Shown here in pieces: positions 8,689-11,402 of a DNA stretch of 29,102 nucleotides. Each line of letters begins with the position of its first letter. Position 1 is the first letter of the stretch. The position numbers and the translations under genes are program-made. The notes under the pieces were generated by a model. The model was not told the origin of the DNA, did not search any database, and saw only the letters and a list, made by a program, of their open reading frames with translations. The DNA is from a virus: IMG/VR virus record IMGVR_UViG_3300009436_000073, positions 1 to 29,102 of that record, one strand, 5' to 3'.

Positions 8689-8949
8689 CTAAAATAATAA
8701 TTTTCCTTGGGCTACGTTATCCACGACATAAACGTGGAAGCCATGTTCTTTCAATCGTTTATGAATTGCGTGTTGGTATGGAGTGGGTCTTTTGCCTGGG
8801 GCTTTGAACTCGATCATCAAGCATTCGCCATCGCGGAAATAAATCATGTCTGGCACACCGCGCTGAGAGGGAGAAGTCCATTTGAACGCCAACCATCCTT
8901 CCCCTCTGGCGTAGCTGTTGACAGTCTGCTCGACGTTGGACTCTCTCAC
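8689..8949 (-). CDS. VRR-NUC domain nuclease
   Basis: An 86-residue stand-alone VRR-NUC protein of the PD-(D/E)XK fold. The active-site pattern is visible: an early Glu in ESNVEQ, SQRGVPDMI with the catalytic Asp, MIEFKAPGK with the E-x-K pair, and PYQHAIHKRLKEHGFHVYVVD. Such phage proteins cut branched or structured DNA during replication and recombination and commonly sit beside an SNF2 helicase. The start is GTG overlapping the polymerase stop by four bases (GTGA), so it is translationally coupled to the polymerase gene. Confidence 0.93.
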   Translation of the reverse strand: MRESNVEQTVNSYARGEGWLAFKWTSPSQRGVPDMIYFRDGECLMIEFKAPGKRPTPYQHAIHKRLKEHGFHVYVVDNVAQGKLLF

Positions 8950-10415
8950 TTCCGGTATCTCTCCGACTCATAGCCCTCAACGTCCACGGGTAAACCCCTA
9001 GCCCATGACGGCAGCTTGCACATTAAAGAGTTAAATTCGTCTAACGATCCAAAATCTTTGGGTACGTCCGCGACAATTTCGTCATGCACAGTGAGCACAA
9101 CGGGGTAGCCAGCGTTTTCAATATTTAGTACCGACTGCGCCAACAGATCTCTAGCAACCGCTTGAGTGATGCTCTGCACAAGCGAACCGCCGTAGCTGTC
9201 TATCTGACCCCATCGGTGCGTGTGATTGTTGATGCCTTCGTAGATTAGCTTTTCACCGTATGCGCCGTCAGTCAGTGAGGCTCTGGGGAATGAAAGTATT
9301 CGTTTCGATGGCAGCTTGAAGAGAAGGTCGCTTTCAACAAATTTAAACGATCCACAACGGGTATCCTGCTCAGTGCCGTAGCGCACCGCGTTCATCGCTG
9401 CGCGTTCGACTTCGTTCCACAACCTAACTATCGGCTTGTTGGCTGCACGCCAATCGTCTCTTATCTTGATGGCACTAGGTTCATCCACGTTAGTACCGTA
9501 GTTCTCTGACATTTTTTGGAAGGCGCGAACACCACCCTGATAGGAAAGTGCTAGGCTTGCTACTTTTCCTCGAAATCGTTGATCCTTGTCCACATCGTCG
9601 TAGTCGCAACCCTCCATTGCTGCCGCTGTAACTTTGTACAGATCAAGACCTTCTCGAAATGATCGCAACACCGTGTCATGCCCTGCAAGCCAAGCAATGA
9701 CCCGTGCTTCGATGGCGCTGTAGTCGCTAACTATAAGCCTGTTACCTTCACTGGCAATCAACATTCCCCGCAAACAACTGGACAGTGCCTCCATCGGTTC
9801 GCATGGAAAGAGTGACGGATCTCTGTGTTTGAATAGGTCGATGACTGCGTCAACGTCATCGACTGTTGGGCGCGGTAAGTTTTGAGGTTGGAAGTGACGG
9901 CCTGTCCACCGCCCTGTGGCAGCGCCACAATAAATCATGCTGCCATGCGCTCTGCCATCGCGGCCCAAACAAGACAACATAGCTTGATACTTCTTCGTGC
10001 TACTGCGCGACAGCGCCTGTCTGATTTGCAGAAACCGCTCAACCTTTGGAGGGCAAAAACCCTCTAACGCGCAAACAACAGCAGCTTTGTCGTAGCTTTC
10101 CATCGACACACCTTGGCGGTTAATCCAATCCAGAGCCTTTGCGCGGCTGCTGGTTGATGACATCTCGCCATCGGTAAGATCAAACACTTCGGCGTTTAGC
10201 TTTTGCTCTACGTCCGCGATGATCGCCAACGCATGTTCAATGTTCTCTTTATCTAAACGCACACCCCGCCAGTTAATCTTCTGGTCAAGCTCCCATATTT
10301 GGCGCTCAGTCCCGCGCAGATCGCGCAGACGTTTTCGTATTTCGCTCTCTGCAACAACGTCCTGTTCACAGTAGTCGTACATTTCCTTTAGCAGTTCTGG
10401 ATCTCTATTTCGCAC
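8946..10415 (-). CDS. Family A DNA polymerase, polymerase part
   Basis: 489 residues with all polymerase motifs of the DNA polymerase I family: motif A IVSDYSAIEARV (D231), motif B RFRGKVASLALSYQGG (R280, K284, Y292) and motif C LTVHDEIVAD (H444, D445, E446). Near the N-terminus, YCEQD (Y15, D19) is the Exo III motif of a 3'-5' proofreading domain whose Exo I and II motifs are encoded by the preceding, differently framed ORF. The start GTG has AAGGG 7 bases upstream, so separate translation is possible. A TAA lies four codons upstream in this frame. Either a +1 frameshift joins the two parts, or the gene is really split, or a base is wrong in the assembly. Confidence 0.93.
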   Translation of the reverse strand: MRNRDPELLKEMYDYCEQDVVAESEIRKRLRDLRGTERQIWELDQKINWRGVRLDKENIEHALAIIADVEQKLNAEVFDLTDGEMSSTSSRAKALDWINRQGVSMESYDKAAVVCALEGFCPPKVERFLQIRQALSRSSTKKYQAMLSCLGRDGRAHGSMIYCGAATGRWTGRHFQPQNLPRPTVDDVDAVIDLFKHRDPSLFPCEPMEALSSCLRGMLIASEGNRLIVSDYSAIEARVIAWLAGHDTVLRSFREGLDLYKVTAAAMEGCDYDDVDKDQRFRGKVASLALSYQGGVRAFQKMSENYGTNVDEPSAIKIRDDWRAANKPIVRLWNEVERAAMNAVRYGTEQDTRCGSFKFVESDLLFKLPSKRILSFPRASLTDGAYGEKLIYEGINNHTHRWGQIDSYGGSLVQSITQAVARDLLAQSVLNIENAGYPVVLTVHDEIVADVPKDFGSLDEFNSLMCKLPSWARGLPVDVEGYESERYRK

Positions 10416-10845
10416 GTTTGGCCCTTACTTTTTGTGGTTTACACAACCGCTGAATTAGCAGCTTTCCGCGCTTATCTTTAGCTTGGTCACCTTCCAGCCC
10501 CAAAAACGTGCCACAGTTACCCAGCGCACGGGGATAAGCCTGTACTGAGCTGAGGGCTGCGGTGTCATTCCACTGCCTAAAAGGGACGCGAGGCCAGTCT
10601 AAAACTAAATTCCAAATACACATCTCAAAGAAACTGTTCCACGCCCATATTTGTGCGCCTTTCTCAATGTAGTGAAAAAGCTGCACGGGGAGGGGATCTC
10701 CCCAAAGCCAAAGCTCTGGGGGTTCCTCGTTGACGCGCCAAGCCAAGCAGATCACTTCCGTGCTAGGGTGGTCTGCGTAGGCATATGCGCCAGCGGAGCG
10801 AATGTCACTTTCGCTGTAAGTCTCAAAGTCGATTGAGATGATCAC
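10405..10845 (-). CDS. DNA polymerase 3'-5' exonuclease part, separate frame
   Basis: 146 residues matching the N-terminal proofreading domain of phage family A polymerases. Exo I is SIDFETY (D6, E8) and Exo II is WNSFFEMCIW (N70, E74). The usual third motif is missing here and is found at the start of the next ORF. The end, LIQRLCKPQKVRAKRAK, stops at a TAG 11 bases into the polymerase ORF. Start GTG overlaps the DUF2815 stop (GTGA). As a lone product the domain would lack one metal-binding Asp, so it is unlikely to be an active exonuclease unless joined to, or complemented by, the polymerase part. Confidence 0.88.
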   Translation of the reverse strand: MIISIDFETYSESDIRSAGAYAYADHPSTEVICLAWRVNEEPPELWLWGDPLPVQLFHYIEKGAQIWAWNSFFEMCIWNLVLDWPRVPFRQWNDTAALSSVQAYPRALGNCGTFLGLEGDQAKDKRGKLLIQRLCKPQKVRAKRAK

Positions 10846-11402
10846 TCGAAAAACGAGTCCTCTGCTTCAGCAACGACATCAGCAGCGGCTTCGTCCCCTA
10901 TGTCATCTAAGAGGTTGGCTTTGCTACCACCACCACCGCCAAACCGATCACCTTCTTTGACAAACTGAATCAGGTCGAGATTCGCGTTTACGCGCTTGCC
11001 ATACTGGTTGTCTTGCACCCATAGGCCTATTACCGCGTTGACGTAGCAACCGGAGTAGGGCTTGTCATCTAGCTCCACTAACTCCATTTTGTCGCGATCA
11101 ATAATTTCCGGTTTTCTGACAGTGCTTGCGCTGACAAACATCTGGCCTTCGTAGCCTTCATAAGATTTTTCTTCGCCATCGCCCAGACACCGCTTGATGC
11201 CTTTTGGTGGTTTGCCGTTGAAAAAGTCTAACGCCATTTCTTGCATTTTCTTTTCTAACGCTTTTATTTGATCACCTTGCGTCTCTTTATCTAGCAAAAA
11301 GTTGCAAGAGTATTTTAGCGGCGACCCTGGGTTGAAAGCCTTTGGTTGCCAGATGTCCGCAAATGACAAACGTACATTTTTCAAAACTACAGTCTTATCC
11401 AT
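10842..11402 (-). CDS. DUF2815 single-stranded DNA-binding protein
   Basis: 186 residues. The pattern LKNVRLSFADIWQPKAFNP, then YSCNFLLDK, GYEGQMFVSAS, PYSGCYVNAVIGLW and GKRVNANLDLIQFVKEGDRF is typical of DUF2815, a family with an OB-like fold whose Enc34 member binds single-stranded DNA. A Gly-rich linker (GGGGGS) and an acidic tail ending EDSFFE follow, a layout like bacterial SSB, where the tail recruits replication partners. ATG follows AGGT. It is in the order DUF2800, DUF2815, polymerase, the standard phage replication module. Confidence 0.92.
   Translation of the reverse strand: MDKTVVLKNVRLSFADIWQPKAFNPGSPLKYSCNFLLDKETQGDQIKALEKKMQEMALDFFNGKPPKGIKRCLGDGEEKSYEGYEGQMFVSASTVRKPEIIDRDKMELVELDDKPYSGCYVNAVIGLWVQDNQYGKRVNANLDLIQFVKEGDRFGGGGGSKANLLDDIGDEAAADVVAEAEDSFFE

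Follow-up and report, generated by a model that had tools for sequence, protein, structure and literature searches.

A phage family A DNA polymerase gene divided within its exonuclease domain into two overlapping reading frames

Introduction

How might a proofreading DNA polymerase be made from a gene whose 3'-5' exonuclease motifs are divided between two reading frames? The question is raised by a locus in a tailed-phage record of IMG/VR (IMGVR_UViG_3300009436_000073), of which positions 1 to 29,102 (29,102 nucleotides, hereafter the window) were analysed. The record contains integrase, repressor, terminase, portal, scaffold and major head protein genes; with this gene content, the phage is probably temperate. 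A preliminary description placed the Exo I and Exo II motifs in one ORF (exo) and Exo III at the start of an overlapping polymerase ORF (pol), and offered three explanations: a programmed frameshift, a true split polymerase, or an indel in a short homopolymer.

Results

Inspection of the ORFs bore out the coordinates, frames and overlap of that description, and the placement of Exo I and Exo II on one product and Exo III on the other (Table 1). The pol ORF lies in the +1 frame relative to exo. It matches the Pfam DNA_pol_A family (E 1.5e-21), and both ORFs match PHROG 17 (DNA polymerase; pol E 4.2e-96, exo E 1.2e-13), while a sequence search of the exo ORF against the PDB gave nothing significant. 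In relatives a single ORF encodes this polymerase, and the exo and pol ORFs each match a part of it. A TAA codon in the pol frame (10427-10425) lies just four codons upstream of the pol GTG, which is therefore the only early start shared by all relatives. The TAAGG ahead of it includes both this TAA and the AGG proposed earlier as a slip codon; the distance of 7 bases previously given between AAGGG and the GTG is correct when counted after AAGG, but is 6 nt after AAGGG. The overlap of start and stop at the exo/pol junction resembles the neighbouring junctions of the same operon, in which the TGA of the ssDNA-binding protein gene overlaps the exo GTG (GTGA, 10842-10845) and the VRR-NUC GTG overlaps the pol TGA (GTGA, 8946-8949).

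Table 1. Features of the divided polymerase locus and its neighbours (window coordinates)
Feature	Coordinates	Strand	Description
exo ORF	10405..10845	(-)	146 aa, carries Exo I and Exo II; N-terminal portion of the 3'-5' exonuclease domain
pol ORF	8946..10415	(-)	489 aa, Exo III helix and entire family A polymerase domain
exo/pol overlap	10405..10415	(-)	11 nt, GTGCGAAATAG
pol start GTG	10415-10413	(-)	inside the 11-nt overlap
exo stop TAG	10407-10405	(-)	inside the 11-nt overlap
TAAGG, ribosome-binding-like	10423..10427	(-)	7 nt ahead of the GTG, counted from the last G
Exo I codons D6-F-E8	10822..10830	(-)	exo ORF
Exo II codons N70-S-F-F-E74	10624..10638	(-)	exo ORF, stretch WAWNSFFE
Exo III codons Y15-C-E-Q-D19	10359..10373	(-)	pol ORF
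Enc34-type ssDNA-binding protein gene, upstream	10842..11402	(-)	Pfam PF10991, E 3.7e-37
VRR-NUC nuclease gene, downstream	8689..8949	(-)	Pfam PF08774, E 2.5e-6

The residues of all three exonuclease motifs are present, D6, E8, N70 and E74 on exo, and Y15 and D19 on pol. In exo, D6, E8, N70, F73 and E74 are invariant (22 aligned relatives), and Y15, C16, Q18 and D19 of pol are invariant in the pol alignment (A1). Exo II does lie in the exo ORF, as first described, but the match to Klenow D424, judged by spacing from D6 and E8, is E74 and not N70. The position of this Klenow aspartate, assigned by residue spacing, is occupied by glutamate (N-x-x-F-E) in split and whole forms alike.

Scans with each product found the same junction (split A) in 14 further IMG/VR contigs at 88-97% amino acid identity, and a scan with the exact pattern recovered the same 14. 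All 15 contigs, window included, contain the GTGCGAAATAG overlap and share the junction pattern TAAGG-NNN-AAR-CGTGCGAAATAG. TAAGG is kept in every one of them, including the most divergent member (L013), which also keeps the GTG and TAG, has an A run of four and no GGG, and is altered in the bases between and around the GTG and TAAGG. Split A forms a single clade (support 100/100), sister to a clade that contains whole genes and a second split described below, and a wider tree, from which only the topology was taken, agreed.

Since the same arrangement is found in 14 other contigs, the split is real, beyond chance or error. A sequencing or assembly error in a short homopolymer would explain the window, where a one-base difference near the GGG would unite the frames, but the junction recurs in 14 independent contigs, and L013 is split without the GGG and with a shorter A run; we regard the chance of such an error as negligible. 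The junction contains no long homopolymer, with CAAAAAG and GGG as its only runs. Transcriptional slippage was also rejected, the A run of just 5 (4 in L013) being well under the length of at least 8 that is typical (PMC3711429). An intein, intron or homing gene at the split was rejected because the ORFs overlap, leaving no insert.

To assess selection on the two parts, dN/dS was computed by the Nei-Gojobori method, pairwise within groups. In split A pairs, from 15 contigs whose synonymous divergence reaches ~1.1, exo gave 0.015-0.11 and pol 0.041-0.059. The values are low in both split ORFs, as in whole genes, for which dN/dS was 0.05-0.15 in the exo part and 0.04-0.09 in the pol part. Pairs from the second split gave 0.07-0.08 for exo and 0.04-0.06 for pol, where computable. 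On these substitution rates, both ORFs are maintained as proteins by purifying selection. A split is the usual sign of gene decay, in which a frameshift mutation would have inactivated proofreading or the polymerase and left the pieces as remnants, and a distant prophage copy, in Streptococcus phage Javan269 (L130), does look decayed: a break separates the exo and pol parts of its polymerase gene, several stops lie in between, and the annotation gives two DNA polymerase I genes. Decay of split A is nevertheless very improbable, given the low dN/dS of both its ORFs across the 15 contigs and the invariant catalytic residues in both parts. The homopolymer indel suggested in the preliminary description likewise fails against a junction found in 15 contigs with purifying selection on both parts, and of its three explanations the true split polymerase is the best supported.

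Comparison with homologous polymerases, as had been proposed, showed that single-frame relatives exist more widely and that close relatives carry the same split, so that the site is not, as might have been the case, always in one frame in relatives. In one comparison the gene was in one frame in 83 of 86 relatives, the other three being L138, L142 (contig of L004) and Javan269; in two further comparisons, all relatives outside the two splits were in one frame where both parts could be tested. All matches in INPHARED were below 60% identity, and three odd ones among the matches listed were checked, none of which had this split. A scan of bacterial genomes gave 8 relatives, none of them split where both parts could be tested, and found no host. 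Searches of the open-access literature turned up no family A polymerase described as broken between Exo II and Exo III.

The second split (split B) lies ~20 codons upstream of the split A point and was found in six contigs (L014, L015, L081, L105, L138, L226). Over 786 nt, L226 shares 98.9% identity with L015 and so may not be independent. The exo frame terminates in GM[D/G]DE before its stop (MEMDDE in L105), and the pol frame starts with M[N/S][N/K]LKDKRGK, its ATG lying within ATGA[A/G]TAA in all six contigs, with an overlap of 8 nt. Whole genes with 92-97% pol identity to L015 (L099, L102-L104, L106, L107, L112, L116) are interleaved with split B. The existence of two different split points implies at least two events. 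In the wider tree, split B is scattered among whole genes (L037, L099, L107, L111-L116), and L138 stands in a separate subclade; this patchy distribution means repeated origin, transfer or re-fusion.

Between pol and VRR-NUC, a C5-cytosine DNA methyltransferase-like ORF was observed in one split A contig (L009:4837-5649) and one split B contig (L081:6842-7888), and in each contig another long ORF, on the same strand but in a different frame, overlaps it (L009:4874-5584, L081:6804-7808). The window has no methyltransferase-like ORF at this position.

Whole relatives read ...LCKPYRGKRNRDPELL at the split A site, and split A reads ...LCKPQKVRAKRAK followed by a stop, plus (M)RNRDPELL. When these sequences are compared by eye, about two extra codons in split A appear to bring in GTAAGG, and about four extra bases appear to make the GTG and set the TAG in the exo frame. 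For split B, an out-of-frame ATG is already present at the same GATG in most whole neighbours; a net +1 change, again judged by eye, probably put the stop right after it. The result at both splits is a start codon overlapping a stop. Overlapping gene pairs are translated in tight coupling, and subunits of complexes are over-represented among them (PMC6728339, PMC10666635). GeneTack takes co-located start and stop codons as a mark of coupling, and at both splits a conserved start lies no more than 10 nt from the upstream stop, as its criterion specifies (PMC3711429). The computed Shine-Dalgarno pairing of TAAGG is modest, at -3.6 kcal/mol (-5.2 in L013), and that of the split B starts is -5.3 to -7.1 kcal/mol, against a background with a median of -1.9 and its lowest 10% at -5.0 kcal/mol.

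A programmed +1 frameshift at AGG_G or AAA_TAG, by which some ribosomes would make a fused polymerase of ~640 residues alongside a short exo product, would account for the pol ORF being in the +1 frame at both split sites, and fused whole-gene relatives exist. Re-pairing is possible, as the preliminary description supposed for AGG_GCC: of the 15 split A contigs, 14 allow AGG to re-pair with GGG, but in L013 the site is AGG_ACG and the third base of the re-pairing is lost. AGG is also not the rare Arg codon it was taken to be, since it accounts for 43 of the 6969 codons in the phage, equal to CGG. The pause signal of a stop or rare codon in the A site is absent at AGG, the stop following five codons further on; the weaker AAA_TAG site does have a stop, and AAA can re-pair with AAT at two of three bases. 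At split B, the stop is preceded by GAA or GAG, neither of which can re-pair at +1, so that the sister split has no plausible +1 slip site. The overlap of start and stop codons conserved at both splits, GeneTack's mark of coupling (PMC3711429), and the conserved TAAGG also count against a frameshift. The RF2-type (prfB) +1 frameshift shares with the window two ORFs at a +1 offset, but the AGG site of the window lacks an A-site stop and a close upstream Shine-Dalgarno-like sequence, and here a start overlaps the stop. Between AGG and TAG the exo frame is slightly less variable than the pol frame, which weakly suggests that translation in the exo frame continues to its own stop. A frameshift at AGG_GCC is thus disfavoured relative to a true split, and we consider programmed frameshifting at either site unlikely; some +1 shifting at low frequency may occur in split A.

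To locate the two cuts in the fold, a whole relative (L037, 625 aa) was modelled with AlphaFold2 (pLDDT 87.0, pTM 0.83). The model is of the Klenow type, with Z scores of ~22-24 to Bst, Taq and E. coli Pol I, and a Foldseek match to phiVC8 DpoZ (7PBK, E 2.3e-15). Within the exo domain, confidence is lowest at residues 121-140 (block means 68 and 65), a stretch that covers helices 118-122 and 126-135, ahead of the Exo III helix (146-169). Split B maps to ~120, at the start of this stretch, and split A to ~139-145, at its end; in the model, confidence in the exo domain is poorest where the two cuts fall, at a stretch of low confidence (121-145) in the same predicted loop, directly ahead of the Exo III helix. 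The region between helices E and F of DpoZ is mobile and solvent-exposed (PMC8599892), and residue spacing suggests that both splits lie in the equivalent region. When the exo fragment of the window was modelled alone, its strands were kept, with a confidence of 72.5 and pTM of 0.58, and residues 17-28 and 136-146 fell under 50. This lower confidence, obtained with an input alignment that differed from that of the whole protein, would fit a part that needs its partner.

Discussion

In our view, the most likely explanation of the locus is that a family A polymerase gene underwent fission into two cistrons coupled in translation, and that their two chains together rebuild the proofreading site. 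In the loop that separates the Exo II part from the Exo III helix, small insertions would have made a stop in the upstream frame and, just before it, a start in the +1 frame. Ribosomes would end the 146-aa exo chain at the TAG and re-initiate at the overlapping GTG with the help of TAAGG, producing the 489-aa chain of Exo III and polymerase, and the two chains would associate non-covalently to rebuild a proofreading polymerase. We infer the re-initiation, the reassembly and the proofreading activity; the error-correcting site is most likely assembled from two separate proteins.

Split phage polymerases are already known, and in those we found described the break lies at another place in the protein or surrounds an inserted element; here the proofreading site itself is divided, and nothing is inserted. 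In the T4-related Aeromonas phages 25 and 44RR, one polymerase is likewise made as two chains, gp43A and gp43B, from adjacent genes, and those of phage 25 co-purify with polymerase activity (PMC2988022). The gp43 proteins belong to family B, and their genes are separated by a seg homing-endonuclease gene (phage 25) or untranslated intercistronic sequence (44RR) (PMC2988022), whereas the window has a family A polymerase in overlapping cistrons without an insert. The OM43 phages MEP401 and MEP402 (PMC10580990) also have a marine phage family A polymerase in two ORFs, but there the break is inside the polymerase domain, with a small ORF between, while the overlapping ORFs of the window are broken within the exonuclease domain, after Exo II and before Exo III. 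In phiVC8 DpoZ (7PBK, PMC8599892), a whole family A phage polymerase with its exonuclease domain is a single chain, in which the E-F region is mobile yet unbroken. Coupled overlapping gene pairs (PMC6728339, PMC10666635) show the same layout of start over stop and often encode subunits of one complex; they commonly overlap by 1 or 4 nt, whereas split A overlaps by 11 nt and split B by 8 nt, and the products are halves of one ancestral domain.

A further reading, to which we give little credence, is that proofreading is optional, with pol alone acting as an exonuclease-deficient polymerase and a docking exo chain restoring fidelity. If this were true, the phage could adjust its mutation rate through the relative amounts of the two chains or their affinity for each other, and the recurrence of splits at one loop in two sister clades would reflect adaptation rather than neutral change.

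The natural series of whole, split A and split B genes in closely related uncultured phages offers a direct means of asking whether a proofreading site can work across two chains, whether it is neutral for a replication enzyme to undergo fission, and how an overlap of start and stop codons allows a gene to break while its subunits stay in balance.
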